Source: Candidatus Bathyarchaeota archaeon
Lineage (GTDB): Archaea; Thermoproteota; Bathyarchaeia; Bathyarchaeales; Bathycorpusculaceae
Direction of reading: 5' to 3'
Assembly: GCA_026014585.1 (NCBI GenBank)
Contig: JAOZIA010000022.1
Location: forward strand, 248,001 to 312,000
Length of the DNA: 64,000 nucleotides
Numbering within the stretch: position 1 is the stretch's first letter; every line of letters starts with the position of its first letter. Of the stretch, positions 20,752 through 39,678 are shown piece by piece. A program made the position numbers and the translations under genes. Below the pieces are notes generated by a model that was not told where the DNA came from, did not search any database, and worked only from the letters and a program-made list of their open reading frames with translations.

Positions 20752-21810
20752 TTATCCCAGTATTGAGTCCACTGTTAGATTGAGAACAATCTCGGCTATG
20801 TCACAGGAGTATTCAGCTGTTCTCCGAATACTTTCAATAATTAAACGCAATGTTGCTACATCCTCAATATCTACCTGAGCAGAGATAGCATCATGCTCTA
20901 AAGAAACAACCTCATTGATGTTTTCCATTATTTTTTCAGCCATGTTATAGTCTTGTCTGAAAAGGGCTTCCATGGCGATAGTGAACATTGTGATTGCTAT
21001 ATTACCCATTTTGTCAATTTTCTCTAAAACATCGGGATTTAACCCCTTTTTGAGGACTAAAATGTTTTCTGCAATCTTAACAGCATGATCTGCTGTTCGT
21101 TCCACTGACGTTGTAACAAGACGATAGCTTAAACAATCTCTATCGTTTTCAAGACCGATTTCTTTGGATACCCGAGGATTTTGTATGGCCAATTTTAACA
21201 ATCTATTAACATAAAGATTAAACCGATCCACTTCGTTATCTGTGGATATTATTTCCTTTGCCAGTTGGTAATCATTTGTTTTTAGGCCTGATAGTGCTTC
21301 TTTATGCATCGAGGTAGCTATTATGCTCATTCTTCTCAGAGCGCTTTGCACTGTAAGTTCAGGATAGCTTAGAAGAACTTGTAAGCTCAATTGATGTGAT
21401 GTATCGGTTACTATTTCTGTTCCAACCAGCATGCGACGAACAAAATTTTTGATTTCATACCTTTGTTTTGTAGACAACGCTTGTTTATCGGGTTTAACTG
21501 GTCTAATTTGAAGGGTATTATGTCCCGCTAAATAGACTGCAATAATTTTTCTTGTTATCATTTCTGTAGAGTCCGAAGCAGAAACCTTGATTACAACTTC
21601 GCCAGTCTTTTTTTGCACAGCAGCAGCTGGAGGACCTATAGTCAATAAGCCACCTTGTTCCTCGCGTAATTTAATGAAACTTCCTTTCTTTAATTGATTA
21701 GAGGCAATCCATTTTTTAGGTAATGAAATAATGTAAGTAGAGCCACCAGTGAACTGAATTTTTCTTGTTTCCTCATCCTGTTTTGCCTGCACTAAGCCTT
21801 CCCTTTCCAT
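20752..21810 (-). CDS. phoU: PhoU-domain regulator with N-terminal AbrB/SpoVT-like domain
   Basis: An N-terminal swapped-hairpin AbrB/SpoVT-like DNA-binding domain (RKIQFTGGSTYIISLPKKWI) precedes two three-helix PhoU repeats (about residues 115-350). PhoU proteins restrain Pst transport when phosphate is plentiful; archaeal members with an AbrB-like head are presumed to act on transcription too. ATG 21810 is preferred; GTG 21828 is possible. It is divergent from pstB. Two tandem TATCTA-type motifs lie upstream at 21831-21879. No PhoR/PhoB pair is seen in the window, so this protein is a candidate phosphate regulator. Confidence 0.88.
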   Translation of the reverse strand: MEREGLVQAKQDEETRKIQFTGGSTYIISLPKKWIASNQLKKGSFIKLREEQGGLLTIGPPAAAVQKKTGEVVIKVSASDSTEMITRKIIAVYLAGHNTLQIRPVKPDKQALSTKQRYEIKNFVRRMLVGTEIVTDTSHQLSLQVLLSYPELTVQSALRRMSIIATSMHKEALSGLKTNDYQLAKEIISTDNEVDRFNLYVNRLLKLAIQNPRVSKEIGLENDRDCLSYRLVTTSVERTADHAVKIAENILVLKKGLNPDVLEKIDKMGNIAITMFTIAMEALFRQDYNMAEKIMENINEVVSLEHDAISAQVDIEDVATLRLIIESIRRTAEYSCDIAEIVLNLTVDSILG

Positions 21811-21830
21811 GCCTTCGGCTAATAACACGG

Positions 21831-21879
21831 CTATCTACAGAGAATTACATAATAAATGCCTTATCTATAGAAAGTACAT
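21831..21879. promoter_or_regulatory. Tandem TATCTA-type motifs between phoU and pstB
   Basis: CTATCTACAGAGAATTACAT (21831) and TTATCTATAGAAAGTACAT (21861) are similar units 30 bases apart in the phoU-pstB divergent region. Closely related sequences occur ahead of two cohesin-type genes (24352-24371, 25640-25659) and a weaker one ahead of pstS (27882-27897). They may be sites for a phosphate regulator or variants of a core promoter. Confidence 0.4.
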
Positions 21880-22027
21880 ACAAAATCATAGTTTATTGCT
21901 GCTATTGCGAAAACCAATATAATACATTTTACCCAAACGATTCACTGAAAGAAGATAAGGTGCCATAATCAAGTTAACCTTAAACAAAATCAAATCAAAA
22001 AAATGTTCGCTTTAGGAGGAGAAAGGA

Positions 22028-22780
22028 TTGGGTAAAGTTCAAACTAAAAAATTCAATTTATGGTTCAAAAATAATCACATTTTGAAAAATGTTGATTTTG
22101 AAATCAGAGAGAAAACAGTAACTGCCATAATGGGCCCGTCTGGATGTGGCAAATCAACTCTTTTACGCTCAATTAACCGAATGAATGACTTAATCAACGG
22201 TTGCAAAACTGCTGGCGAAATATTTTTCGATGGAATGAACATTTATAGTGATGACAGCAATGTTTACGATTTAAGACGCAGGATAGGCATGGTATTCCAA
22301 AAGCCCAACCCATTTCCTAAATCCATTTTTGAAAACGTAGCTTTTGGTCCACGCATCCACAACACAGCAAAAGGCGAAAAACTAAAAGAAGTTGTCGAGA
22401 ACAGTCTCAGAGGCGCAGCATTGTGGGATGAAGTCAAAGATCGCCTAAACGAGCACGCTTTTAGCTTATCAGGAGGCCAGCAACAAAGGCTTTGCATAGC
22501 ACGTGCATTAGCTGCCGAACCTGAACTGATACTTATGGATGAACCATGTAGTGCTTTGGACCCCGCTGCGACAGCACGTATAGAAACGCTTGTTGGAAAA
22601 CTTAAGGAAAAATACACTGTCATCATTGTTACTCACAATTTGCAGCAAGCATTACGAGTCTCAGATTTCACAGCTTTCATGTATGTAGGTCAACTTGTCG
22701 AATATAATAATACAAGAACCCTTTTTGAAAGACCAGCAAACGAGTTAACTCGAAACTACATTAATGGCAAATTCGGCTGA
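22028..22780 (+). CDS. pstB: Phosphate ABC transporter ATP-binding protein PstB
   Basis: A 250-residue ABC ATPase that powers phosphate import through PstC/PstA at the inner face of the membrane. Walker A is GPSGCGKST (about residues 36-44), the signature is LSGGQQQR, and Walker B is [13 protein letters not shown] with the switch His in THN. The start is TTG 22028, supported by a strong AGGAGGA ribosome binding site 8 bases upstream. It is separated from pstC/pstA by 5.3 kb of surface-protein genes on the other strand, which is unusual for a pst operon. Confidence 0.95.
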
Positions 22781-22831
22781 TAACGGAATGTCCAGAATAA
22801 ACACTCATTTATTTCTTTTTTATAAAAGATT

Positions 22832-24313
22832 TTAGATGGAAAATTTATTAAAAAAAGCACTTTTTCTTTTATGAGAAACTATGTAAAAGGATAAAAAGGC
22901 GGCAAAACAGACAAAAAGTGCAGCAATACCAGCCCAAGCATACTCCGGCACAGGAAATGGACCAGCAGTAGGAGATGATGTGGGGGGTTGAGTGGAAGTA
23001 GGATTCGTAGTAGATGTTGGCTCTTGTGTAGAAATACTATCTAAAATTGTAAAGTTAACATCCACTTCCGCCGCTAAGGCAGTACTATTTTCAGATAATA
23101 AGCAAATATAAGCTATTGCTTCGCCATTGAAAGCCCATTGAGGAATAAAGATTGATGCAGTATATGTGTCATTTACCGGTGTTTCACTGTTTTTTATTGT
23201 GTATGAGTTTATGGGGATTTGTGCATGGTCAAATAAGGTTATATCTATTTGATGCCACGAAGAGAAGTTACTCAGGCTGCGTGTAGGTATCGTTATTGAA
23301 ATGTTTTCTAGCTTGTGGACACTTGAGGGAACTTGAACGCTGCTGATTATATCGTTTGAACGAGTAAACGTAAATCCAACAGTATCATTTAAAAACACGC
23401 CAGAAACAGTTGCTGACGCATTAATAATCCAGATTCCAACCATCTCAGCCTCGATTTCACTCGGTGGAGGCAACCTAAATTCGAAGGAAGCATAACCAGA
23501 CGAATTTGTCTGCACTATTTCAGATTTAAATTGAGTCCCATTATAAGTAACTACAAAGGACACATCTACACCCTCAACAGATTCAGTAGAATGAAGAAGC
23601 CTAGTATATGCCTTAACAAGTTCCAGCGAACGATAAACCCCACCGCTTGCACCTATTCCGCCTTTATCAGTAAAAGCGTCGATTTTGCCAGTATCAGGCA
23701 CAACAGGGGCAATTACAGTCACTGTTGGAGAAGTTATGGGTAGAGAAATTTTTGGGTATACACCATCGCTTAATGCTGGACCGGTTAATGTTGCACCAGT
23801 AAATTGAATATTTGCATCACCAGTACCAACAATAAGGAAAGTAAAATAACACAACTCACCCGCAGTAAGGCTTGAAGCGCCATCATCATCACCAAGAATA
23901 CCATCACCAACCCCACCCTGAAGAGCCCCCACGGTATTGTTAATGACGCCTGGAGCGAAGAGCGTGGTATAGTCTCCATTGTCTCTGTCTCTAAGATATG
24001 TACCTTCTTTGATTTTGGTTAAGTTAACGACATCTGGATTCCACGTTACAAGGTCTATTCCCCAACCCCAGATGTCAGCAGCGTCACTGATAGTGAGACT
24101 GACCTGAAAGGTGGTTGAACCAATTGTGTATGTCCCGTCCGGGTATGACCATGATGATTCCGTTGTATCTCTTTGATAAACATTAAATGTTCCTGACGTG
24201 GTTGCGGAAACAAAGCTGTTGACTGATAGTAAAACCATTGATGCCACAAGGAGTGTTAGGCAAAATAATCCAATTATCTTTTTATGGCTGATTTTATTGG
24301 TAAACATAATCAA
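22832..24313 (-). CDS. Cohesin-domain surface protein with VPEY C-terminal sorting tail
   Basis: A 493-residue exported protein: signal peptide (about 1-37), a cohesin-type beta-sandwich (about 40-205, with DIWGWGIDLVTWNPDVV and ELCYFTFLIVGTGDANIQF), and Ig-like regions (about 210-430). A Ser/Thr/Pro linker follows (about 430-452), then a tripartite tail VPEY (455-458), hydrophobic helix and basic end SHKRKS. The tail has the layout of PEP-CTERM-type signals cut by exosortases or archaeosortases. Cohesin modules bind dockerins; a dockerin-like module is on PstS at 26557-27744. It is about half identical to the cohesin part of the 25769-26446 protein. TTG 24313 opens the frame; ATG at 24307 is an alternative. 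Function inferred. Confidence 0.75.
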   Translation of the reverse strand: MIMFTNKISHKKIIGLFCLTLLVASMVLLSVNSFVSATTSGTFNVYQRDTTESSWSYPDGTYTIGSTTFQVSLTISDAADIWGWGIDLVTWNPDVVNLTKIKEGTYLRDRDNGDYTTLFAPGVINNTVGALQGGVGDGILGDDDGASSLTAGELCYFTFLIVGTGDANIQFTGATLTGPALSDGVYPKISLPITSPTVTVIAPVVPDTGKIDAFTDKGGIGASGGVYRSLELVKAYTRLLHSTESVEGVDVSFVVTYNGTQFKSEIVQTNSSGYASFEFRLPPPSEIEAEMVGIWIINASATVSGVFLNDTVGFTFTRSNDIISSVQVPSSVHKLENISITIPTRSLSNFSSWHQIDITLFDHAQIPINSYTIKNSETPVNDTYTASIFIPQWAFNGEAIAYICLLSENSTALAAEVDVNFTILDSISTQEPTSTTNPTSTQPPTSSPTAGPFPVPEYAWAGIAALFVCFAAFLSFYIVSHKRKSAFFNKFSI

Positions 24314-24342
24314 CTACAACGAGAGTTCCTTTGTTTACTTAC

Positions 24343-24371
24343 TAAATTAGCATTATCTACATAGAATATGG
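24343..24371. promoter_or_regulatory. Conserved upstream element of the first cohesin-type gene
   Basis: AAATTAGCATTATCTACATA followed by GAATATGG is nearly identical to 25632-25659 upstream of the second cohesin-type gene. It lies about 30-60 bases ahead of the start codon. It may be a shared operator or core promoter. Confidence 0.45.
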
Positions 24372-24426
24372 TCTGTTATAGGAACCAATTAGATATAAAT
24401 AAATAGAAGAAAATAAGAAAATTAGT

Positions 24427-25401
24427 TTATCTTGCTTTTCTGAGCCAGAAAACTGAACCAGCCACGACAATAATTGTAACTGCAACAATAATACCTAAGA
24501 TGGTAACGGGCAAGTTTTTGGTAATGTCAATAACAACGGGAGTAGAAGATGGTGAAGAGTCAGACGGTGTAGGAGATGCAGTGGTGTCCTTTTTGACTTT
24601 TATTGTAACTGAGGCATCATCAGTGCCATATGAATCTTGAACTGTTAACAAGATATCATATGTTCCAGTGTTATTGAAAGTGTAGGTAGCAATCATGCCT
24701 GTTAGAGTTTGGGCTGTGCCATCAGTAAATGTCCATGTATAAGTGGTATCATTTCCCACAGACACTGTTCGTGACGCATTAAGAATAACGGGGGTTCCCT
24801 GTACGACTGTTTTGTTGTCTCCTGCGCTAGCGATTGGTGGACCAGCAGTTGCTTCAAGAGAAATTTTGGCAGTAAAAGAAGTTGATGAAGGAGTTATATA
24901 CTCCATTTCATTATTAGCCGTTCTTTCATAAATTAAACGTATACCCTCTAGTTTTAGTGGAGAGTCTGAACATGGTTTTATCACTTTAAATGTTAAAGTT
25001 GCTAGCGTTCCACTTCCACTTGCAAAGGTAGTAAGACTACCCAACACAGCATCAGCTATGGTGCATTTTCCTGGAGGATATCCTACTGAGTCCTCCGCAG
25101 GTAAAACTCCATAGATAGTGGTAATATCTTGGTCTGAAAAGAAAGAGCCTTCTTGAGGAATCCCAACTAAAGACAGACACTCTGGATCCCATGTTACGTT
25201 GGCATCCCAGCCCCAAAGATGTTCAACTGATGAAATCTCGATTGCAACTGTGAACTCTTCATTGAGTTGTTCAGCAGTATACTCAGCTGGGTCAAACGTT
25301 AGAGTAGGAGCATTTTGAGCGTTAACTGGTTCTATGTTCACAGCAAGAAATATTGATAACGCAGACAGGATTAAAAGGCAAGCGATAAATTTTCTGTTCA
25401 T
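24427..25401 (-). CDS. Cohesin-domain and PKD-domain surface protein
   Basis: An exported membrane-anchored protein. I place the start at ATG 25401 (MNRKFIACLL), which gives a proper signal peptide and has an AGAGG ribosome binding site; the frame is open upstream to 25536. After the signal comes a cohesin-type domain (about residues 30-185 of the shorter form, HLWGWDANVTWDPECLSLVG, TLATLTFKVI). A PKD/Ig-like domain follows (about 190-280, TYTWTFTDGTAQ, GTYDILLTVQDSYG), then a Ser/Thr/Pro linker and a C-terminal helix ending LRKAR. It lacks the VPEY motif of its two neighbours, so it is probably held as a plain transmembrane protein. Likely a dockerin receptor on the cell surface. Confidence 0.75.
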   Translation of the reverse strand: MNRKFIACLLILSALSIFLAVNIEPVNAQNAPTLTFDPAEYTAEQLNEEFTVAIEISSVEHLWGWDANVTWDPECLSLVGIPQEGSFFSDQDITTIYGVLPAEDSVGYPPGKCTIADAVLGSLTTFASGSGTLATLTFKVIKPCSDSPLKLEGIRLIYERTANNEMEYITPSSTSFTAKISLEATAGPPIASAGDNKTVVQGTPVILNASRTVSVGNDTTYTWTFTDGTAQTLTGMIATYTFNNTGTYDILLTVQDSYGTDDASVTIKVKKDTTASPTPSDSSPSSTPVVIDITKNLPVTILGIIVAVTIIVVAGSVFWLRKAR

Positions 25402-25631
25402 TTTTTGAATCCTCTCGGAAAAGTTATTTTCTGCCGATTTAGTGATACTTCTTGATTCGGAATCAACTGAGAATTTATGCGTGAAATAAACCATAGGTCT
25501 GAGAAAACTTGCATCAATTGACGCCTCCACTTGCACGCTGGATTATTCCTATTGCTAATAACTTGATGCGATAACATATTTTTTATCCCTTCTCCAATCT
25601 GAGTTTGGCAATTTTTCTGTTGCCTATTTCT

Positions 25632-25659
25632 AATTAGCGTTATCTACATAAAATATAGG
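25632..25659. promoter_or_regulatory. Conserved upstream element of the second cohesin-type gene
   Basis: AATTAGCGTTATCTACATAA followed by AATATAGG matches the element at 24343-24371 at most positions. It lies about 230 bases before the preferred ATG, implying a long 5' leader or an upstream start at 25536. Confidence 0.45.
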
Positions 25660-25768
25660 ACTTATAGTGAGAGTGAGAAGGGTTACAGCAATTAAACCTC
25701 TTAAAGTATTAAAAAATAAAAAAAGTTGGTTGCTGGATCACAATTAGTGATCAGCACTTTTCCATAGC

Positions 25769-26446
25769 TTAGATGTGTTTGCTGAATGATGGGAATTTGA
25801 AGCTTTTCTTGAAGGCTGCGAATGCAAAGAATGCTGCGAATGCTGCGCCTAAAGCTGCAAGAGCACCAACGAGGTATTCAGGAACCACGAATGGTCCTGT
25901 AACGTTAACGAGTGGTGCGTTCACTGTAACATCGCCATCATTTAAGGTTGCACCGCTAAACTGAATGTTTGCATCGCCAAAACCGACAATCTCGAACTTG
26001 AGATAGCATAATTCGCCAGTCTCAAGAGTTGAAGCGCCATCTTCGTCACCTAGAATAGCATCGCCAATTCCTGCAGAAATAATGCCAACGTCATTATCAA
26101 TTGTGCCTACAGCGAAGAGTGTGTTATAGTCGCCATTTTCTTCATCTATTAGGAAATCGCCTTCTTTCACCTGAGTGCAGTGGACAACGTCAGGGTTCCA
26201 AGTAACAGTGTCAAAGCCCCAACCCCAAACCTCAGAAGCGCCACTAATGTAGACGCCGACTTGGAAGATTGTGCCCATATCACTTGGCATGTATGTCCAT
26301 GTTGATTCAGTAGTTCCTCTCTTGTAGACATCGATTGAACCGGTTGCAGAAGCAGAAGCAACGCTAGCAAGGACTAGTGGGACGATTATGAGCAAAGCTA
26401 ACGACAGTGTAGCTATGGTTTTTCTTTTATAGATTTTAAAGTTCAT
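25769..26446 (-). CDS. Small cohesin-domain surface protein with VPEY C-terminal sorting tail
   Basis: A 225-residue exported protein that is little more than a signal peptide (about 1-34), one cohesin-type domain (about 36-180) and a tripartite tail. The tail is VPEY (188-191), a 23-residue Ala/Phe/Gly-rich helix, then lysine-rich. The cohesin domain is clearly paralogous to that of 22832-24313 (EVWGWGFDTVTWNPDVV, ELCYLKFEIVGFGDANIQF). The start has a good AAAGGAG site. It is immediately downstream of pstS on the same strand, so it is probably co-expressed with PstS. Best candidate for the partner of the PstS dockerin-like module. Confidence 0.78.
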   Translation of the reverse strand: MNFKIYKRKTIATLSLALLIIVPLVLASVASASATGSIDVYKRGTTESTWTYMPSDMGTIFQVGVYISGASEVWGWGFDTVTWNPDVVHCTQVKEGDFLIDEENGDYNTLFAVGTIDNDVGIISAGIGDAILGDEDGASTLETGELCYLKFEIVGFGDANIQFSGATLNDGDVTVNAPLVNVTGPFVVPEYLVGALAALGAAFAAFFAFAAFKKSFKFPSFSKHI

Positions 26447-26556
26447 TTATTTTTATCTCCTTTCAATTTTTTACTATTTTTATCTTATTTTTTTATTATT
26501 TCCCTAAATAAAAGGGGGAACGTGATTCAGTTTTTGCTTATACACTTTGATTGTGT

Positions 26557-27744
26557 TTACTTGTAGTTGCGTGCAAAGATGTATGTGTCTGTAGGACTGT
26601 ACTGACCGTCAGCGTTCATGTCGACATAGGGGTTAAGTAAGCTTGAACCATAATTGCCTGCAAAGTAGTATAGATCTAATGGTGAAATCGCGTTGTCAGG
26701 GATGTACTGAGTCTGACCTGGGCGTGCTCCGTTACCTGTACTGATGTCGCTTGTGAAGTCGTCGCGTAGCATGTTCATGTAGCCTTCACCTGAAACGAAG
26801 TTCTCTTCACATAGATCTTCGACGTATGCGTAGTCACCTTGGTAGTCAGGGTTGGTTGCGTTTGGCAGTTTCATGAAGCTGATCCAAACTGATTGAGCTG
26901 CATCTTCTGAGCCAACTGCTGGAATGCCGTCAGTGAGGTGCCAGAGGTTGCGGATTGGTGTGTATAGACCTGCAAGAACGTTTGCTTCTGTTGGTTCGTA
27001 GTATTCGCCTTCGGCTGCGTTGTAGATGTTAATTGGGTAGAGTCCACCGAGGTGGAGGAAGCCCATGCCGATGAAAGCAATTGAATAGTCTTTAGTAGCA
27101 CCTGTTGTCATGTGGTTGTAAACGTCAATGTTGTTTGGCAGTTCTGTGAATGGAGTAGTTATGTCTGTAAGTTCTAGATCTTCTGGGTCAAGGAAGAAGT
27201 TATAGAAGCAGTCAGTAGTTCCGGATTCAAGGTCGCGTACGACTCTGTCGATTGGAGTTGCTGGTGCAGTGCCGACAAGGTAGCCTGCTGGAAGATCATC
27301 CCAGTTGGTGTAACCGCCGCAGTAAATGTCTGCAACTTCTTGCGTTGTTAGGTCTGTTTTCAGCCAGTTGTTGCCAGGACCGATAAGAATTGCAATGCTG
27401 TCAATACCTATAGACCAGATTTGAGCGTTATCAGCACCAGATAGGGCCCATTCAGTTGATTTGGGAAGCCTTGACATTGAACCGACGTCAGAGTAAGGCG
27501 TATCTACCTGATAAACACCTGGAAAAGCACCGCCGCTTCCGCCTGAATTGACCTCAACAGAAGTAATTGCAGGATAATGGTTCATAAAAGCAGTTTTTGC
27601 AGCCATAGAGACTGGATAAACTGTTGAAGAACCTCTCGTTACTAATTCGTGTGATGTTAGCAAAGCCTGTACTGGACCGACCATTGCAAAAGCCATTAAT
27701 GCAATCAAAGCTATAGCAACAATAGATTTTTTAATAGGTGTCAA
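26557..27744 (-). CDS. pstS: Phosphate-binding protein PstS with C-terminal dockerin-like module
   Basis: An exported PstS-type solute-binding protein of 395 residues that captures phosphate for PstCAB. Phosphate-site motifs are visible: RGSSTVYPVS, NSGGSGGAFPGV and RDLESGTTDCF. The last 50 residues are not part of the PstS fold. They hold a canonical dockerin calcium loop D375-x-N377-x-D379-G...D386 followed by TYIFARNY. A degenerate first repeat (D350...D357, LYYFAGNY) precedes it. No lipobox or C-terminal membrane helix is seen, so the protein needs another anchor; three cohesin-type surface proteins are next door. The start is TTG 27744 with an AGGAGAAAGG site. PstS identity is sure; the dockerin call is strong from the motif. 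Confidence 0.88.
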   Translation of the reverse strand: MTPIKKSIVAIALIALMAFAMVGPVQALLTSHELVTRGSSTVYPVSMAAKTAFMNHYPAITSVEVNSGGSGGAFPGVYQVDTPYSDVGSMSRLPKSTEWALSGADNAQIWSIGIDSIAILIGPGNNWLKTDLTTQEVADIYCGGYTNWDDLPAGYLVGTAPATPIDRVVRDLESGTTDCFYNFFLDPEDLELTDITTPFTELPNNIDVYNHMTTGATKDYSIAFIGMGFLHLGGLYPINIYNAAEGEYYEPTEANVLAGLYTPIRNLWHLTDGIPAVGSEDAAQSVWISFMKLPNATNPDYQGDYAYVEDLCEENFVSGEGYMNMLRDDFTSDISTGNGARPGQTQYIPDNAISPLDLYYFAGNYGSSLLNPYVDMNADGQYSPTDTYIFARNYK

Positions 27745-28063
27745 TTTGTTTCCTTTCTCCTTTTGTTTTTGAACGATTTCCGTTCGAGCTAACGACCGGT
27801 GTTTCGTTCGAGGAGTCTTATCGGGTAGCGAGAATATTTTGGTTGTCGATTTAAATTACGTATAACTATTTAGGCTAAGTTTTATCGATAGAAAACGATT
27901 TTAAAAATGAAAAAAGCAACTTTTGCTATAGCCACTTTAGATGGAATAGAGTCTATTGTAAATAAATAGGATACCAATATTTTGTTGCAAGGATATTTTG
28001 AGCCTGTATTTATAAGGGAGAGAGCAAGGAGAGAGGAAAACGACAACAGGAAACAATAAGGCA
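27745..28063. promoter_or_regulatory. Divergent pstS-pstC control region
   Basis: About 320 bases between the divergent pstS and pstC genes. Near pstS it contains an inverted repeat GAACG-atttc-CGTTC (27771-27785) and two direct copies of CGTTCGAG (27781-27788 and 27805-27812). TTATCGATAGAAAACG at 27882-27897 resembles the motif upstream of phoU. Near pstC is the palindrome AATAGAGTCTATT (27945-27957). No credible gene lies here. Confidence 0.5.
27945..27957. promoter_or_regulatory. Candidate phosphate-regulon palindrome upstream of pstC
   Basis: AATAGA-G-TCTATT is a 6-bp inverted repeat around one base. Twelve consecutive bases (ATAGAGTCTATT) are identical to 33401-33412 upstream of the polyphosphate kinase gene. 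It lies about 110-135 bases ahead of pstC. Confidence 0.45.
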
Positions 28064-28090
28064 CTGAAAGAAAAGTTAATCAAATACATT

Positions 28091-28936
28091 TTGTTTGCTT
28101 GTGCGGCTTCCTCAATACTAATAGTTTTCTCCATACTTGGCATAATTTTATCCATCGGATATTCTCAACTGATTGATTGGTTTGCTAACGGTTTTGGAAT
28201 GGTCTGGTTTCCTGATTATGGAAACGCTGGAGAGTATGGCATAATTCCATATATTTTTAGTACCGTTTATGTCGGTGTCGGGGCAATAGCATTTGCAGCT
28301 ATCATAGGCATCCCCTGTGCAATATATTTATCCGAGTTTGCTGGATCAAAATTTAGAAATTTAGTTAAACCAAGTTTAGAAATGCTCACAGGTTTTCCAT
28401 CTATAATTATTGGTTACATAGGTTTCGCTTTACTGGTACCACTTTTAACTAGATATTCTGGCCAACCTTTTGTAAGCACATTAGCAGGCTGGATCCTCCT
28501 TGGCATAATGGCGCTTCCAATTATAACAACAGTTTCAGAAGATGCAATAAGAAGAGTACCCAATGACCTTAGAGAAGCATCACTGGGGGTAGGAGCAACC
28601 AAATGGCAAACCACCATCAAAGTTTTACTGCCTTCCGCAAAACCCGGAATCTTAGCTTCGGTTCTACTTGGTTTAGGAGAAGCAATCGGTGAAGTAATGG
28701 CAATAAGTATGATAATGCCAGTGGTATATGGACCAACCATTACCTTAAACCCATTTACCAAAACATGCGTTTTGACACCGTTAATACTTCAAATCACGGA
28801 CAATGAAATAGGAACCACCGGAAACAACTTTTGGTATGCAATCGGTGGTGTAGCATTTATTCTCTTTGTAATGTGCGCTTTACTAAACATAGCTATACGA
28901 TTCTTAACCAAAAAAGGAACCGCGAGGGAACAGTGA
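28091..28936 (+). CDS. pstC: Phosphate ABC transporter permease PstC
   Basis: A 281-residue permease with six membrane helices forming half of the phosphate channel. The cytoplasmic coupling loop EDAIRRVPNDLREASLGVGATKWQT contacts PstB. TTG 28091 is the first ordinary start but has no ribosome binding site and falls inside the first helix. The frame continues upstream as LKEKLIKYI from a CTG at 28064, which would restore the usual basic N terminus. Only one base separates it from pstA. Confidence 0.93.
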   Translation: MFACAASSILIVFSILGIILSIGYSQLIDWFANGFGMVWFPDYGNAGEYGIIPYIFSTVYVGVGAIAFAAIIGIPCAIYLSEFAGSKFRNLVKPSLEMLTGFPSIIIGYIGFALLVPLLTRYSGQPFVSTLAGWILLGIMALPIITTVSEDAIRRVPNDLREASLGVGATKWQTTIKVLLPSAKPGILASVLLGLGEAIGEVMAISMIMPVVYGPTITLNPFTKTCVLTPLILQITDNEIGTTGNNFWYAIGGVAFILFVMCALLNIAIRFLTKKGTAREQ

Positions 28937-28937
28937 A

Positions 28938-30284
28938 ATGACTCAATTAATTAGCCCAAAACGAATCAGCCACTATTTCAGGAATAAAAAAATAGACAAT
29001 ATTGTGGCAGGACTGCTCATATTTATTGTCGCAGGCATTTTTGCATATTTTGCCTTTTCTAAAATCCTATATATGTCATCTCAAGCGGATTACGTGGATC
29101 TCTTCGGATGGGTTTCATACTTTAATTTCTATATGCAAGACACCATAGTGGGAGCATTAATGATAGTACCCATTATTGGCTTTTTTGCATTAGGATACTT
29201 ACTAATTGAAGCGCATCCGATGGCATGGAAAATAACATATGGAGTAGCCATAATCGCAGCTGTTTTAACTGCCACAGGATTAATAGATCAAATGTTTACA
29301 ATACCTGTTGCTTTACTAAGCACAGTCGCAGCATCCATTAATCTTTATAATAAAAGAAAGTCACAGCAAACGGCAAAAATCAGTTCATCAATAATTACAG
29401 AAAATATTGCTAAATTAGGCTTACAAGTCTCAGGAGTTTTATGCATCTTTATTCTTTTTGGATTTATACTTTATGTGTTTGTTAGAGGCTCCATATACAT
29501 AAGTTTTGATTTCATTACTGGACCATGGAGCTATGACCTTCTTAGAACTTCTATGTTAGCAGGTGACCCGAACTTAGGAGGCATATTCATATTCATTTTA
29601 GGTTCACTATTACTGGTTGCACTTTGTGAAGCAGTATCCATCCCGCTGGGACTTTGCTCAGCAATTTATCTATCGGAATATGCCCCACAGAACAAAATTA
29701 CAGGAACCATCCGTTTTTTCATAGAAACTTTAGCTGGCATCCCATCAGTTGTTATAGGATTAGTGGGATACGCGATATTTTGTAATTTTTTTGGATGGAA
29801 GGAGTGCCTCTTGGCAGGTAGCCTATCATTAATGATGATGACTATACCGTGGAACATAAGAGTGAGCGAAGAGGCAATAAAATCTGTTCCACAAAGTTAT
29901 CGTGAAGGCGCATACGCCCTTGGCGCAACTAAATCTCAAACTATTGGAAAAATAATTTTGTATGCTTCGAGCCCAGGAGTAATCACAGGAATCATCCTAG
30001 GCATAGGGGGAGCCATTGGAGAAACCGCGGTTCTTCTTCTCACTTCAGGCCATGTAATACCAGACGCGTTTCCAACTAATATTATCGGCGACAAGGTTCC
30101 AGCGCTGACTGTTTGGATAGAGAAGATAAGGTCTCTTATGGCTTCAGGTGGCGTTAACGTGGCTAATGCAGAGAATCTGGCTTTCTCCGCCGCATCTGTG
30201 CTAATAGGAATTTTCATGATTATTTGCATTACTGGGTTGTGGCTTAGAAATCGTTTAAATAAAAAAATAACTGGGCAAACATGA
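28938..30284 (+). CDS. pstA: Phosphate ABC transporter permease PstA with extended N terminus
   Basis: The C-terminal 290 residues are a standard PstA permease, with the coupling loop SEEAIKSVPQSYREGAYALGATKSQT and the final IGETAVLLLTSG segment. The total length is 448, far longer than the usual 280-300. About 150 extra N-terminal residues hold four more membrane helices (about 23-45, 68-88, 98-115, 118-137) ending in a basic loop. The start ATG has a GAGGGAA site and follows pstC by one base. The extension may be a regulatory or partner-binding part; its function is unknown. Confidence 0.93.
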   Translation: MTQLISPKRISHYFRNKKIDNIVAGLLIFIVAGIFAYFAFSKILYMSSQADYVDLFGWVSYFNFYMQDTIVGALMIVPIIGFFALGYLLIEAHPMAWKITYGVAIIAAVLTATGLIDQMFTIPVALLSTVAASINLYNKRKSQQTAKISSSIITENIAKLGLQVSGVLCIFILFGFILYVFVRGSIYISFDFITGPWSYDLLRTSMLAGDPNLGGIFIFILGSLLLVALCEAVSIPLGLCSAIYLSEYAPQNKITGTIRFFIETLAGIPSVVIGLVGYAIFCNFFGWKECLLAGSLSLMMMTIPWNIRVSEEAIKSVPQSYREGAYALGATKSQTIGKIILYASSPGVITGIILGIGGAIGETAVLLLTSGHVIPDAFPTNIIGDKVPALTVWIEKIRSLMASGGVNVANAENLAFSAASVLIGIFMIICITGLWLRNRLNKKITGQT

Positions 30285-32340: not shown

Positions 32341-32871
32341 ATGAAAGAAACTGAAGTGAAAATTTTAGAAGTTAACAGAGAAAAAATCGAAAAAACTCTG
32401 GCAGCTTTGGGTGCCATTAAAGTGTTTGATGGAGAATTGTTAACGTTGTTTTTTGATTTTCAAGATGGCAGAATCCGAAAAAAAAGAAATGTGTTGCGTT
32501 TGAGGAAAGAGCCTGAAAAGGTTGAGTTAACTTTTAAGAAGGCGCGGTTTGAGGAAAAAGCTAAGGTCGCTCAAGAGGTTTCAGTTAATGTTTCAGATGC
32601 GGATGCAATAACCGAAATTTTGCAGGAAATTGGTTTAGAAGTTACTGGAGAAATGCAAAAACACCGAACCAGCTACAAGTTTGAGGGTGCTCGTTTTGAT
32701 ATTGATAAGTATGGAGGAGTCTACGGGTTTATTCCAGAGTTTATGGAAATAGAAGGTAGCCTCAAAGAAATAAGAAAATATGCAGAAATGTTGGGTTTCC
32801 AAGAAAAAGATTGCTTTACCTGGTCAACTGACGAGTTAATACGGCATTATTATGAAAAACAAAATAGATAG
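32341..32871 (+). CDS. CYTH-domain protein (CyaB/thiamine-triphosphatase-like)
   Basis: A 176-residue single-domain CYTH protein. The hallmark ExExK motif is ETEVKI at the N terminus, followed by alternating basic and acidic residues of the triphosphate tunnel (IRKKRNVLRLRKEPEKVELTFKKA) and DIDKYGG. CYTH enzymes hydrolyse inorganic triphosphate, thiamine triphosphate or polyphosphate, or cyclise ATP with metal. Its place just before the PPK/CHAD/Ppx genes favours tri- or polyphosphate as substrate. A TATA-like TTTTTAACTTAAAAAG lies about 30 bases upstream. Confidence 0.9.
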   Translation: MKETEVKILEVNREKIEKTLAALGAIKVFDGELLTLFFDFQDGRIRKKRNVLRLRKEPEKVELTFKKARFEEKAKVAQEVSVNVSDADAITEILQEIGLEVTGEMQKHRTSYKFEGARFDIDKYGGVYGFIPEFMEIEGSLKEIRKYAEMLGFQEKDCFTWSTDELIRHYYEKQNR

Positions 32872-32879
32872 AAGGAAGT

Positions 32880-33344
32880 TTAGGGAACGGTTTTGGGTTT
32901 TGGTTTTTGGGCAGGTTTCTTCTTAACAGGTTTGGCTGCAGCAACGGGCTTGGGTTTTTGAACTGGCTTTTTTGGAGTGTTCCAAGCGGGGTATTTACCG
33001 TGTTCTTTCTTAAAGTTCTCAAGTAGCGCTTGTTGGGCTACTTTTGGCTTGTCGCTTTCCATCCAGCTTACTGAAACTTTTTCCATGCAGCCATCTTTTG
33101 TTAGCATTGAATGTATTTTTCTGGATGATTTGCTGCCGTATCCTGCAAGGTAGCCGCCGAAGATTCTTTTGGCGGGTTTTTTGGATTTGCCTATGTAGAG
33201 GATATCAGAGGGGTTTTTTCCTGTAATTGTTGAATCAATTAGAATGATGACGCCGCTTTTGTCGGCGGGTATAGATGAGAAGGTTAATGACTTGATGGAT
33301 GTAAATTCCTTGAAGCCTTTTTCCTTTAAAGTTGATGAGTTCAT
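32880..33344 (-). CDS. GIY-YIG-like nuclease domain protein with Lys/Pro tail
   Basis: A 154-residue protein. Residues about 25-115 fit a divergent GIY-YIG fold: GVIILIDST as the first strand, ILYIGKSKKPAKRI as the YIG motif with the downstream Arg, and ALLENFKKEHG with the catalytic-type Glu. The last 35 residues are a low-complexity KPxPK repeat that could bind nucleic acid. It is convergent with the CYTH gene. Substrate unknown; the domain call is fairly good but the sequence is diverged. Confidence 0.6.
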   Translation of the reverse strand: MNSSTLKEKGFKEFTSIKSLTFSSIPADKSGVIILIDSTITGKNPSDILYIGKSKKPAKRIFGGYLAGYGSKSSRKIHSMLTKDGCMEKVSVSWMESDKPKVAQQALLENFKKEHGKYPAWNTPKKPVQKPKPVAAAKPVKKKPAQKPKPKTVP

Positions 33345-33656: not shown

Positions 33657-35810
33657 GTGCTAATTGACGATGATTTAAACTCACAAGATAAAGACCTGTT
33701 ATCACAGGAAACCATGCTTGACAACCCTGACTTCTACATTAACAGGGAACTTAGCTGGGTAAGGTTTAACGCCCGCATACTTGAAGAAGCACGTGACATG
33801 TGGCAACCACTGCTGGAAAGGGTAAAGTTCATCGCAATCTGCGGAAGCAACCTTGACGAGTTCTTCATGACACGCGTTGCCAGAATGATTAAAAAAATAA
33901 ACAAAAACTCCCAAGAACGATCCATGGACGGGATGACCTTTTTTGAGCAAATCAAAGCCACACGAAAAGAGATTCTGCCACTGATACAAAGCCACGCGGA
34001 CTGCTGGAACAACGAACTCATCCCTGCCTTGGCCACAGAAGATATCCATATCCGAAAATTTGTGGAGTTACCAGAAAAATGGAGAGAAAACCTTCGTGAG
34101 TTCCTTAAAACAGAGGTTATCCCAAACTTTCCAATCCCCGCACAGGGTTTTGACAGCGAAAACATTGAGAACTTGTGTGTTACGCTTTACGTGTCAGGGT
34201 TTGTAAACAAGGACTCTTTTTGTATACTTCCGATGCCTATTGAAAAATTTGGTCGGTTAATTCTGATTCCCCGAAAAACGTACCTGCCAAAACCTGAACC
34301 TCAAAACCTAATGGAATATGATTATGTTTTCTTGGAGGATTTAATAGCAAACAACTTGGACATGTTCTTTCCCAACGAGAAAAGTCTGGTTGCTTATCCG
34401 TTTAGGGTGACGCGAAACGGGGAAATTGATATCATAATGGATGAATCTTCAGATTTTCTTGATTCAGTTCAGAAGGGGCTTTCGGATAGAAAAACAGGTT
34501 TTCCGACAAGGATAGAGTTTGACAAACGCACACCACAACCAATCAGAGAAATGTTGTCAAATTATTTGGAATTGCCTGATTACGTGCAGTACGAGTTTGA
34601 CGGTCCTTTGGGTTTGGTTGACCTTTGGCAGTTAATGAAAATAAATCGTCCTGACCTTAAAGATAAAACGTTTTTACCCTCGATTCTGCCCTTGCTTACG
34701 CCTGAGAAAAATATTTTCAAAACAATCGCCAAAAGAGACATTGTACTTTATCATCCCTACGACAGTTTTGAGGTGATTGTTGATTTTCTCAAAGAAGCAG
34801 CCAATGACAGCGACGTTGTTGAAATCTGCATCACCATGTACCGCATGGACGCGAAATCACCCGTTGTCAGCGCGCTTATGGATGCAGCCCAAAAAGGCAT
34901 AAAAGTAACTGCTATAATCGAGTTAAAAGCAAAATTTGATGAAGAAAATAACATCCAGCTGGTTTCAAAGCTTCGGGCAGCAGGTGTTAACACGGTGTAT
35001 AATTTTCCAAATTTTAAGGTGCACGCAAAACTGTGCCTTGTAGTGCGCAATGAGAAAATGGGGCTGGTGCGGTACTCGCATATCGGCTCAGGAAACTATA
35101 ACTCTGTGACAGCCAAAATCTATGGCGATATTGGTTACTTAACGGCTAACCAAGAGGTGGGCAGAGAACTAGAAGACCTCTTCAACATCCTGATTAACGG
35201 GTTGCAAGAAAAAGAGTTCAAACATTTGCTTGTTGCACCTAAATCGCTTAAAAACGAAATTCTTAAACGAATTGACCAAGAAATTGCCTTCCACCGCAAA
35301 ACAGGCAAAGGCTATTTAGCCTTTAAATTAAACAATCTGGAAGAAAAAGACATCATTAAAGCGCTTTTTCGGGCATCAATGGCAGGCATAAAAATCGAAT
35401 TAAACGTGAGGGCACTGTGCTGTTTAAGACCAGACATACAGGGTGTAAGCGACAATATTTCAGTTATTTCTATTGTTGGCCGGTTTCTTGAGCATGCCCG
35501 AATCTACTATTTCCAAAATGGTGAAAACAGTGAGGTCCTAATCGGCAGCTCAGATATGATGTTCAGAAACCTCAATGAGCGTGTTGAAGTCCTCTTCAGC
35601 GTACCTGACCCGCAGATTCGAAAAGCAATCCTTGATAATATGCTAAAAATCCACTTAAAAGACAACATTAAAGCCCGCAGACTTCTCTCTAACGGCACAT
35701 ACGAGAGGATTACACCTAAAGAGGGCGAACGAAGCGTGAACTCGCAGTTTTGGCTAATTCAAAACAGGGGAGTATGGCACCAGTATGCCGACTACATCCA
35801 AGACCTGTGA
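33657..35810 (+). CDS. ppk1: Polyphosphate kinase 1 (PPK1)
   Basis: A 717-residue PPK1 that reversibly makes long-chain polyphosphate from ATP. Landmarks are INRELSWVRFNARILEEA at the N terminus and HPYDSF. The autophosphorylated-type histidine is His456 in KVHAKL, followed by SHIGSGNYNS. A second histidine-bearing phospholipase-D-like half holds GSSDMMFRNLNERVEVLFSV. Length and domains are normal for the family. The start is GTG 33657. It overlaps the following CHAD gene by 26 bases, so the polyphosphate genes form one operon. Confidence 0.96.
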   Translation: MLIDDDLNSQDKDLLSQETMLDNPDFYINRELSWVRFNARILEEARDMWQPLLERVKFIAICGSNLDEFFMTRVARMIKKINKNSQERSMDGMTFFEQIKATRKEILPLIQSHADCWNNELIPALATEDIHIRKFVELPEKWRENLREFLKTEVIPNFPIPAQGFDSENIENLCVTLYVSGFVNKDSFCILPMPIEKFGRLILIPRKTYLPKPEPQNLMEYDYVFLEDLIANNLDMFFPNEKSLVAYPFRVTRNGEIDIIMDESSDFLDSVQKGLSDRKTGFPTRIEFDKRTPQPIREMLSNYLELPDYVQYEFDGPLGLVDLWQLMKINRPDLKDKTFLPSILPLLTPEKNIFKTIAKRDIVLYHPYDSFEVIVDFLKEAANDSDVVEICITMYRMDAKSPVVSALMDAAQKGIKVTAIIELKAKFDEENNIQLVSKLRAAGVNTVYNFPNFKVHAKLCLVVRNEKMGLVRYSHIGSGNYNSVTAKIYGDIGYLTANQEVGRELEDLFNILINGLQEKEFKHLLVAPKSLKNEILKRIDQEIAFHRKTGKGYLAFKLNNLEEKDIIKALFRASMAGIKIELNVRALCCLRPDIQGVSDNISVISIVGRFLEHARIYYFQNGENSEVLIGSSDMMFRNLNERVEVLFSVPDPQIRKAILDNMLKIHLKDNIKARRLLSNGTYERITPKEGERSVNSQFWLIQNRGVWHQYADYIQDL

Positions 35811-36126
35811 TTTAGACACCAGCTACTGCAAATTCGGCTCAAAAACAATTCTCAAATTACTAGAAAGTTTTGGCAGCAACATTGACGGCGTCATCGAAAA
35901 CAAGGATGTAGAGTGCGTGCATAAAACGCGAGTTGCCTCCCGAAAACTAAGAGCCGCCCTGCCCCTGTTCAAAATCTGCTTTCCCGAAGATAAATACAAG
36001 AAATGGTTTAAAGAAATAAAAAAGGTAACGCGTCTGCTGGGGGAAGCCAGAGACCTTGATGTCCAAATAATTTTCATAGAAGAATACATAAAAAAATTTA
36101 ATCCCCGAGAAAAAAAAAGCCCTTGA
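35785..36126 (+). CDS. CHAD domain, N-terminal half (frame interrupted)
   Basis: The first 113 residues of a CHAD domain, a helical polyphosphate-binding domain. It has the characteristic VHKTRVASRKLRAALPLF and LLGEARDLDV. The frame runs into TGA just after a run of nine A at 36110-36118. Skipping one base there continues with KKALEIMLSDHK into the next ORF at 36131, which carries the second CHAD half. So this is most likely the front of one gene of about 770 codons, split by a frameshift or a sequence error. It overlaps the ppk end by 26 bases. Confidence 0.8.
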   Translation: MPTTSKTCDLDTSYCKFGSKTILKLLESFGSNIDGVIENKDVECVHKTRVASRKLRAALPLFKICFPEDKYKKWFKEIKKVTRLLGEARDLDVQIIFIEEYIKKFNPREKKSP

Positions 36127-36130
36127 AATC

Positions 36131-38095
36131 ATGCTTTCAGACCATAAAAACCGCCGTAGCAGCATTCAACCCAAAATTGAGCACGAACTCAACATACTTA
36201 AAGCAGTAGACATGCTATGGGAAATATCGCTTTTTTGCAGGCAAACCCTAACTGAAAAAGCTAACCAACCATTTGACCCTTCTCAAGTTCTCACAAGAAG
36301 CCGCTGGTACATCTCCTTTAGGCTGGACGAGTTTTTAGCCAATCAGAGGTTTGTTCATTTTTCAAACAAGAACAAAAAGCATCATCAAATGCGAATTGCC
36401 GCCAAAAAGCTACGGTACACCATGGAGTTTTTTGCGCCCCTCTACCAGAATCAACTGAAAGAACAGATTGAAACAATCAAAAAATATCAAGACCTTCTCG
36501 GCGAAAAACATGACAATGAAGTCTGGATTGAGTACATCCCACAATTCATAGAAAAACTTGCGGCAAAAAGAAAAAAACCAGACAGCGCCAAGCTTGAAGG
36601 CTCACTGCGAAAGTTCCTGCTCTACCTTAAAAGACAAAGGCTGCAAAATTACCGCGCGTTTGTCAAATTGTGGGAGGAAAACAAGAAAAACGATTTCTTT
36701 AATAATTTAAGAAGTGAAAGCGCGGCGGAATCAACATTGACTGAAACACAAATCCAGCAAACCCTGTCAACGCATAAAGGTCCAATCGGGGTTATATCAG
36801 ATATTCACGGTAATTTTCACGCGTTGGAATGCGTTTTTGAGGATGCCAAAAAGCGGGGAGTTAATGTTTTTGTTAATGCAGGCGACACCGTGGGTTATGG
36901 CGCTTTCCCAAACGAGGTTGTTGAGTTGCTTTGTGATAAAGGCGTGTTTGGGGTCTTGGGAAATTATGACCTTGAAGTTTTAGAGGGAAAAGTCAACGTT
37001 AAAGGACCAAAAAGAGTCGCCTACAAATTTGCCAAAAAAGAACTCTCTAAATCAAGCCAGTGCTACCTTGAATCGTTGCCTCGTGAATTACGTTTTGAAG
37101 TTGCAGGTAAAAAACTGCTCATCACTCATGGAAGCCCCAAATCAATCAACGAACACCTAACCCAAAAAACGCCAACTGAAAAACTAAAAAGTTTAGCTGA
37201 AAACGCAAAAGCGGACGTGATAATTGTTGGGCATTCACATGAGCAGTTCCAAAAACAGGTAAAAGATGTGTGTTTTGTTAATCCAGGAAGTGTGGGACGC
37301 CCAGGCGATGGTAATCCGCAGACGGCGTATGCGATTTTGTGGTTTAACCCCTTCAAAGTGGAACTTATCCGCCTAAACTATGATGTGACGGTTGCGGCAA
37401 AAGCATTGCGAAAGAAGGGCTTGCCTGAGAGTTTTGCACAGATGCTTCTTAGGGGTATTTCCTTAGATGAAGTACTGGAAGATGACAGAAAACGGCACGA
37501 AATGATGACCATAAACCCCAAGGAAACCGCGAATTCCTGCAGGTATTTTGCGGCTAAATACTGGCCCGACACCGAGCATTACACTCAAGTTTCCAAGCTT
37601 GCACTACAGTTTTTTGATGGCTTAACTGACCTGCATATGTTCGGCTATAGGGAACGGTGTTGGCTTGAATGTGCTTCAATTCTGCATGACATCGGCTTAT
37701 CAAAGCCGGGTGGGGGGCACCATAAAAAGTCAATGGAGCTTATCTTAGATGAAACGCGGTTGCCGTTGGCTTCACAGGACAGACAGGTAATCGCGTGTAT
37801 AGCGCGGTATCACCGTAAGGGTTTGCCTAAAGCTAAACATTACAATCTTGCATCATTAGACAGCGACTTAGTAGTAAAGGTAACGACACTGGCTAGTTTT
37901 CTGCGGGTTGCTGACGGCTTGGATTACACTCATGAAGCATCTGTGGAAAGCATAAGTTTTAACGTTAGCACAAAAAAAGTCATTGTTGAATGCAAATCAG
38001 GTACAAAATCTCTTCTGGAAGAAGAGGCTTTTAATAAGAAGAAGGATTTGTTTGAAAAAGTCTTTGACAAAAAATTGGTGCTCGCATGGAAGTAA
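36131..38095 (+). CDS. CHAD (C-terminal half) - metallophosphoesterase - HD domain protein
   Basis: A 654-residue multidomain protein. Residues 1-195 are the second CHAD half (HHQMRIAAKKLRYTMEFF, QDLLGEKHDNEVW). Residues about 217-415 are a calcineurin-like phosphoesterase of the YfcE/MJ0936 type: SDIHGN (D224, H226), NAGDTVGYG, GNYD and GHSH supply the two-metal site. Residues about 470-654 are an HD-type domain (LHDIG near 518, ARYHRKGLP) resembling the C-terminal HD domain of the neighbouring Ppx. A polyphosphate-binding head with a phosphatase suggests polyphosphate or nucleotide phosphate hydrolysis. Its stop lies 10 bases inside the ppx gene. The real start is probably 35785 (see CHAD N-half). 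Confidence 0.85.
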   Translation: MLSDHKNRRSSIQPKIEHELNILKAVDMLWEISLFCRQTLTEKANQPFDPSQVLTRSRWYISFRLDEFLANQRFVHFSNKNKKHHQMRIAAKKLRYTMEFFAPLYQNQLKEQIETIKKYQDLLGEKHDNEVWIEYIPQFIEKLAAKRKKPDSAKLEGSLRKFLLYLKRQRLQNYRAFVKLWEENKKNDFFNNLRSESAAESTLTETQIQQTLSTHKGPIGVISDIHGNFHALECVFEDAKKRGVNVFVNAGDTVGYGAFPNEVVELLCDKGVFGVLGNYDLEVLEGKVNVKGPKRVAYKFAKKELSKSSQCYLESLPRELRFEVAGKKLLITHGSPKSINEHLTQKTPTEKLKSLAENAKADVIIVGHSHEQFQKQVKDVCFVNPGSVGRPGDGNPQTAYAILWFNPFKVELIRLNYDVTVAAKALRKKGLPESFAQMLLRGISLDEVLEDDRKRHEMMTINPKETANSCRYFAAKYWPDTEHYTQVSKLALQFFDGLTDLHMFGYRERCWLECASILHDIGLSKPGGGHHKKSMELILDETRLPLASQDRQVIACIARYHRKGLPKAKHYNLASLDSDLVVKVTTLASFLRVADGLDYTHEASVESISFNVSTKKVIVECKSGTKSLLEEEAFNKKKDLFEKVFDKKLVLAWK

Positions 38096-39678
38096 CCTCA
38101 AAAACTGATAAAGTGGTCGCATTCGTGGACATAGGCACCAACGCCGTACGCCTTTTAGTGGTGAGAATAAACCCAAACCTATCCTACACCATAATCAGCC
38201 AAGAAAAAGAAGTCATCAGACTCGGCGAGCAAGAATTCAAAGACAACCAGCTAAAACCTGAAGCGATTGAACGGGCTGTTTTTGTCTGTGGAAAATTTGT
38301 CAGTTTAGCCAAAACGTACGGTGCAAGCGATATAATTGCTGTTGGAACCTCCGCGATTAGGGAAGCAAAAAACCAAGCCGAGTTCCTTCAAAAGCTAAAG
38401 GATGAAACTGGACTTTCTGTTAGGGTTATTTCTGGGCAGGAAGAAGCACACCTGATTTATTTGGGCGTTTCAAGTGGGGTAGATATTGGCGATGAAAAAG
38501 CGATTTTTGTTGATTTAGGCGGCGGAAGCACTGAAATCGCTATTGGAAATCAGTATGAAAGCTTTTACGCCAACAGTCTACGGTTGGGCGCTATTCGGTT
38601 GACGTCGGATTTTATTGGGGAAGGCTGGACTGGACATGTTTCATTAAACATTTACAAACAGATTAAACAGTATGCATCTAAAAAGATGCAGGTTGTAAAA
38701 AGCCGCGTTCTCGAGTACGGTGTTAGAAGAGCATGGGGCTCCTCGGGAACAATCATAAACTTAGCTGAAGTCTCAAACAAACTCTTTAAGAAAAACGGTA
38801 ACGGAAACTGCGGCAACGCATCACTTTCACGCAAAAACCTCAAAAAATTAGTGCCCATCTTGTGCTCGCTGTCTCTTGAGAAAAGAAAACAGTTACCCGC
38901 AATCAACCCTGACAGGGCAGACATCATAATCGCAGGGGCAGCAATAATTGAAGCTGTTATGGAAGATTTTGGGCTTGAAGAAATATGCATTAGTCACCGA
39001 GAACTTCGGGATGGAATGCTGATTGATTACCTTTCTAATTTTGAGAGTTTCCGTGAACTGCAGAAAACCCCCGCCAGAAACCGCAGTGTGCTACATTTGG
39101 GGCGCTCATGCAATTTTGATGAGAAACACGCAGAAACCGTGACGGCTCTGGCACTGCAGCTTTTTGACAGCGCTAAACAAATCGGGTTACACGATTTTGG
39201 CGATAGCCAAAGAGAACTGCTACAGCACGCCTCTATGCTACATGATGTAGGCGATTTTCTTTCCTTTAGCAGTCATCACCTCCACTCCCACTACATTATC
39301 TGCAACGCGGGATTGCCAGGTTTTGACAAAAAAGAAATCATGGAAATGGCTAACATTGCGCTTTTTCACCGCAAAAAGTTGCCCACCAAAAAAGCCCTTA
39401 AAACAAAGGACATGGATGAGAAGACGAAGGAGGCAGTTGCGGTTCTTTCTACTTTTTTGAGGTTTGCTGAGAAGCTTGACCGAAGCCATAGTGGTCTTGT
39501 GAAGAAAGCGGAGTTTATTGAAGAAGATAATGGCAAAATTTTGCTTTCATTTTACTCGGATACTGACTGCAGCTTTGAAGAATGGAGCATAATCCAAAAC
39601 AAACAGGCATTCTACGAAACATTCAACCGAGAAATAGAAGTCAGCTGCACCGTAACGTCCAGCGCAAAAAACGATTAA
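38086..39678 (+). CDS. ppx: Exopolyphosphatase / guanosine pentaphosphatase family (Ppx/GppA)
   Basis: A 530-residue Ppx/GppA enzyme that removes terminal phosphate from polyphosphate. The ASKHA ATPase-like core has phosphate-1 loop VDIGTNAVRLLV (about residues 16-27), the middle glutamate in ISGQEEAHLIY and phosphate-2 loop VDLGGGSTEIAIG. The C-terminal part (about 335-520) is the HD-like domain with MLHDVGDF and ALFHRKKLP. It overlaps the upstream CHAD protein by 10 bases and is the last member of the polyphosphate operon. Confidence 0.95.
   Translation: MEVTSKTDKVVAFVDIGTNAVRLLVVRINPNLSYTIISQEKEVIRLGEQEFKDNQLKPEAIERAVFVCGKFVSLAKTYGASDIIAVGTSAIREAKNQAEFLQKLKDETGLSVRVISGQEEAHLIYLGVSSGVDIGDEKAIFVDLGGGSTEIAIGNQYESFYANSLRLGAIRLTSDFIGEGWTGHVSLNIYKQIKQYASKKMQVVKSRVLEYGVRRAWGSSGTIINLAEVSNKLFKKNGNGNCGNASLSRKNLKKLVPILCSLSLEKRKQLPAINPDRADIIIAGAAIIEAVMEDFGLEEICISHRELRDGMLIDYLSNFESFRELQKTPARNRSVLHLGRSCNFDEKHAETVTALALQLFDSAKQIGLHDFGDSQRELLQHASMLHDVGDFLSFSSHHLHSHYIICNAGLPGFDKKEIMEMANIALFHRKKLPTKKALKTKDMDEKTKEAVAVLSTFLRFAEKLDRSHSGLVKKAEFIEEDNGKILLSFYSDTDCSFEEWSIIQNKQAFYETFNREIEVSCTVTSSAKND

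Follow-up and report, generated by a model that had tools for sequence, protein, structure and literature searches.

A CHAD–metallophosphoesterase–HD module in polyphosphate operons of archaea and bacteria

Gene order and the interrupted reading frame

The window, the whole 64,000-nucleotide stretch of DNA analysed here, belongs to a 2.31-Mb genome in 25 contigs, the closest named relatives of which are Bathyarchaeota such as Candidatus Bathycorpusculum. Its polyphosphate (polyP) operon, with all genes of the series on the forward (+) strand, contains polyphosphate kinase 1 (PPK1; 33657-35810; TIGR03705, 701.7 bits against a cut-off of 465.85). The 3′ end of PPK1 overlaps by 26 nt with ORF 1 (35785-36126; 113 aa), which encodes the N-terminal half of a CHAD domain (PF05235, E 4.3e-20, profile positions 4-88 of 228). 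To ORF 2 (36131-38095; 654 aa) the ORF coordinates and Pfam matches assign the C-terminal half of CHAD, a metallophosphoesterase (MPE) and an HD-type domain. The C-terminal CHAD repeat (HHQMRIAAKKLRY) lies at 36371-36532 (PF05235, E 7.7e-17, profile positions 172-225), the MPE core at 36785-37339 (PF12850, Metallophos_2, E 1.5e-25) and the HD-type domain, of the Ppx/GppA domain III kind, at 37535-38029 (PF21447, E 4.8e-13; HD, E 6e-5). The HD end of ORF 2 overlaps by 10 nt with the start of Ppx, an exopolyphosphatase with a domain III of its own (38086-39678; PF02541, E 1.6e-62; PF21447, E 2.4e-29). The Pfam assignments across 35785-38095 agree with the original prediction that CHAD, MPE and HD are encoded between PPK1 and Ppx in a polyP operon.

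Upstream in the island lies a gene for a CYTH/triphosphate tunnel protein (32341-32871, + strand; PF01928, E 6.5e-15), and a CYTH gene also precedes PPK1 in several relatives. An antisense ORF between CYTH and PPK1 (32880-33344) weakly resembles GIY-YIG, with a score that does not reach the Pfam cut-off. Beside the polyP operon, a Pst/PhoU phosphate island (20752-30284) encodes a PhoU-domain protein, a PBP-like binding protein, two permease components and, as judged by eye, a PstB-like ATPase. The PBP-like protein ends in a DxNxDG-like stretch; the secreted proteins that neighbour it appear cohesin-like by eye and have no Pfam match.

The locus had been described as encoding one three-part protein, of which the architecture stands but the single ORF does not, the protein being divided in this genome between two ORFs in different frames. 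Alignment to fifteen copies from the same genus fixed the position of the frame change: the reading frame switches once, at an A9 run (36110-36118, + strand) inside CHAD rather than between domains. A TGA (36124-36126) closes the frame of ORF 1, and an ATG follows a few nucleotides further on. Each of the fifteen copies is an uninterrupted single ORF of 769-830 aa; two are second copies in their genomes. Because the longest A run around this position in these relatives is at most seven, the A9 is not a conserved slippage site, and conserved programmed slippage is not supported. Neither is a contig full of homopolymer errors, since the 382-kb contig has 13 A8 and 101 A7 runs within unbroken frames and no frame-breaking homopolymer was found in it other than the A9.

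It is possible, although we lean against it, that a true mutation shifted the frame in this genome and that the gene is dead or dying here, its fusion no longer working; such a loss would be compatible with any of the functional readings given below. The location of the change in an A9 that relatives lack, hence with no sign of programmed slippage, and the lack of any other such break in the contig are in keeping with gene death, but the 2.3-kb gene region is free of further stops and frameshifts, and both before and after the break it is the third position of the codon that differs most often from the G007 orthologue (0.24/0.16/0.51 and 0.31/0.20/0.54). In the MPE tree, moreover, the terminal branch of the window MPE is an ordinary one, and an assembly error or translation in two pieces from the ATG soon after the TGA fits equally well. 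The break may be recent, tolerated or an assembly error; unless it is the last, the full-length protein may be absent here, made as two pieces or made by slippage.

The CHAD and HD domains

CHAD, reportedly defined by Iyer and Aravind in 2002, is matched by PF05235 in the two ORFs of the window at 73.1 and 62.5 bits. The CHAD domain of locus L004 scores 157.9 bits against the Pfam gathering cut-off of 25.6, and 15 of 15 orthologues match. Operon CHADs keep the basic His/Arg/Lys set at or near 100%, and they resemble known CHAD proteins (PF05235; 6qva, ygiF TTM-CHAD) in fold, in this conserved basic set and in their polyP operon context. An AlphaFold model of the G007 orthologue (mean pLDDT 87.7, pTM 0.71) was compared domain by domain with solved structures, and its CHAD aligned with 6qva, a CHAD with bound polyP, at Z 25.2. 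CHAD domains bind polyP, as shown for CHADs other than those of the operon family, and a role proposed for CHAD is to confer processivity on the polyP enzymes fused to it (PMC6537752). In the commonest known CHAD fusion, TTM/CYTH is N-terminal to CHAD (PMC6537752); here, in contrast, MPE and HD are on its C-terminal side.

The predicted resemblance of the HD domain to domain III of the neighbouring Ppx is borne out by PF21447, which matches both proteins. The window HD keeps the motif H..HD..HH..H..D and matches the DrPPX domain with an E of 2e-15, and the HD of the G007 model aligns with domain III of DrPPX (8jgo) at Z 20.7. Where the residue is present, operon HDs have the first H in 52/52 and the last D in 54/54 cases, and the HD pair in at least 50/54; DrPPX reads HE at the position where they keep HD. 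Similar in sequence and fold to domain III of Ppx/GppA (8jgo, 6pc0, 1u6z), the operon HD differs in having no attached ASKHA catalytic domain (PF02541), such that the three-part protein contains domain III only and the neighbouring Ppx contains both. Operon HDs and Ppx domains III separate into two clean clades (SH-aLRT 99), by which a recent duplication from the neighbouring Ppx is rejected. From its sequences, we judge the operon HD to be a paralogue of Ppx domain III that separated from it long ago.

Distribution and architectures of the module

Scanning genome contigs with a single-sequence query found no relative. An alignment-based scan using CHAD patterns only, with PPK1 and Ppx outside the query, found 79 loci, and the domains were then marked on their ORFs. 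CHAD, MPE and HD share a single ORF at 24 of these loci, CHAD is separate from a fused MPE-HD at 14, HD is separate from a fused CHAD-MPE at 8, and three separate ORFs occur at 4; a further 8 have CHAD-MPE, 12 have CHAD and MPE as separate ORFs, 8 have CHAD alone within reach and one has CHAD-HD, counts that are not frequencies since the scan ranks by likeness to the whole protein, and some of the loci are cut by contig ends. PPK1 lies directly upstream at 43 of the 71 loci with room for it, and Ppx directly downstream of a module gene at 36 of 72. The order PPK1, CHAD, MPE, HD, Ppx recurs in unrelated phyla of both archaea and bacteria.

The same architecture was found in other genomes, and the domains are not separate genes in all relatives. 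Among the named loci the fusion occurs in Bathyarchaeia, Methanomassiliicoccales/Thermoplasmata, Methanolliviera and one Synergistales, and beyond these lineages the domains are encoded by separate but adjacent genes. The full-length fusion is a minority in the phylum samples, with about a dozen cases in 243 genomes around Methanomassiliicoccus, 3 in 294 around Methanospirillum and 2 in 185 around Synergistales; among genomes sampled from the phylum to which the window belongs, every full-length match falls within the genus or family of the window. Fusions of CHAD-MPE, MPE-HD, CHAD-HD and all three together exist. The same domains in the same order, fused or split and often beside PPK1 and Ppx, identify the three-domain fusion as one state of a conserved polyP-operon module.

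Variants of the operon were also observed. CHAD-HD fusions without MPE lie between PPK1 and Ppx at L104, L154, L155 and L156, three of these cases coming from beyond the 79-locus scan, from genomes of the Methanospirillum-phylum sample. Two tandem PPK1 genes precede CHAD-MPE at L074, L076 and L077 (Methanocalculus/Methanocorpusculaceae). In an Anaerolineaceae locus (L067:7967-9541) the ORF next to CHAD joins the MPE to a SAM hydroxide adenosyltransferase (PF01887/PF20257, Pfam matches for L067 only), and the MPE ORFs of L066, L069, L070 and L072 are similar in length to that of L067. The second copy in genome G023 (L021) is a fusion with a degenerate MPE site that reads DIN and GDYD and has neither HGSP nor GHSH.

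The metallophosphoesterase site and proposed function

The window MPE contains the motifs SDIHGN, AGDT, GNYD, THGSP and GHSH, and its YfcE/SapH-like domain extends to about 37470. The original prediction of intact metal ligands was correct for the ligands themselves, as all seven (D-x-H, D, N, H, H-x-H) are present, but not for the site as a whole, in which Tyr replaces the catalytic His of GNH(D/E) in departure from a canonical calcineurin-like phosphomonoesterase. The metal ligands are kept in at least 69 of 73 operon MPEs. At the GNHD His position, 72 operon MPEs have Tyr (52), Phe (8), Ile (6), Leu (3), Val (1), Ala (1) or His (1), and SapH itself aligns GNWE; in contrast, general MPEs of the surveyed phyla, some of which come from the same genomes, keep the His in 21 of 21 scorable cases.

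In the calcineurin superfamily the GNH His is credited with protonating the leaving group, and phosphate leaving groups need this protonation least; cutting of polyP therefore fits a site that has kept its ligands and lost the His. A polyP-targeted hydrolase or regulator, as first suggested for this locus, appears to be the most economical reading of the domains and the operon. We propose, with about equal belief and doubt, that the family is a polyP-anchored, two-metal phosphoanhydride hydrolase that tunes polyP chain length or turnover, for which we infer the catalysis, the substrate and the role of HD. CHAD would bind the polyP chain or granule. The MPE, with its metal ligands and without the GNHD His, would cut P-O-P bonds, whose phosphate leaving group should need little acid help, and would serve as a polyphosphatase of the chain-shortening or endo type. 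Holding or feeding the chain would fall to the HD domain, in which a second metal site may be present. Working beside PPK1 (synthesis) and Ppx (terminal hydrolysis), the module would set chain length or turnover.

The absence of the GNH His may just as well signify that catalysis has been lost, and the frameshift of the gene in this genome likewise counts against a hydrolase. The main rival to polyP cutting is a polyP-binding sensor or scaffold, in which CHAD and HD would bind polyP or metal, the MPE would have turned into a binding module, and PPK1/Ppx or granule placement would be regulated without hydrolysis of polyP. We consider this unlikely: nearly every operon MPE, whatever its phylum, retains the full set of seven metal ligands, as is hardly expected of a purely structural domain, even if the absence of the His from 71 of 72 operon MPEs, the persistence of paralogues with clearly degenerate MPE sites (L021) and the CHAD-HD versions between PPK1 and Ppx would all suit a sensor or scaffold. 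Neither hydrolase domain is required in every version of the module, since some have no MPE (CHAD-HD) and in others no HD was found (CHAD-MPE).

The substrate may also be other than polyP. SapH, the nearest solved and named MPE relative, is deposited as an asymmetric Ap4A hydrolase and phosphodiesterase, which by analogy speaks against a polyP hydrolase; the MPE of the G007 model aligns with it (3qfn) at Z 24.7 and also matches 2gju, 1nnw and 3rqz. SapH/YfcE-type MPEs (3qfm, 3rqz, TIGR00040) share fold, metal ligands and length with the operon MPE, which unlike them is fused to or beside CHAD and HD in a polyP operon. A hydrolase of nucleotide or diadenosine polyphosphates (Ap4A, ATP, ppGpp), or of cyclic or linear phosphodiesters, would link polyP to nucleotide signalling, with CHAD only localising the protein. 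This likeness to SapH, a TIGR00040 (yfcE) score of 68.3 bits over the curated cut-off of 56.25, the resemblance of HD to PPX/GppA and the nearby CYTH gene point in that direction. We nonetheless regard it as improbable, because operon MPEs travel with PPK1/Ppx and form a clade apart from the sampled general MPEs. A first MPE tree places the general MPEs outside the operon clade (SH-aLRT 99); a second, in which two general rows are gappy or very long-branched, does so for all but one, an unsure row of that kind.

An extension of the polyP-hydrolase proposal, to which we attach rather more doubt than belief, is that the operon MPEs constitute a distinct polyphosphatase class in anaerobic archaea and bacteria. 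They would have dropped the acid-base His since polyP needs none, and CHAD together with a Ppx-III-like channel would feed the MPE for internal or processive cutting, beyond what PPK1 and Ppx provide. The yeast endopolyphosphatases Ppn1 and Ppn2, which are eukaryotic and vacuolar, resemble the operon MPE in belonging to the calcineurin-type metallophosphoesterase superfamily, and they act on polyP. Neither is known to carry a CHAD or Ppx-III domain.

In the papers searched on CHAD with metallophosphoesterases no description of this architecture was found, and an earlier mention is possible. New here are operon MPEs that keep the metal ligands yet replace the GNHD His, and the division of HD and Ppx domain III into two clades. 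A survey of archaeal polyP genes covers PPK1, PPK2 and PPX and names neither CHAD nor phosphoesterases in its main text (PMC6864096). Archaeal polyP turnover is poorly understood. Many methanogens, other anaerobic archaea, Synergistota and Chloroflexota, cultured ones among them, carry the module in their polyP operons, and it predicts a missing step, in which polyP is cut or regulated, that lends itself to direct testing.
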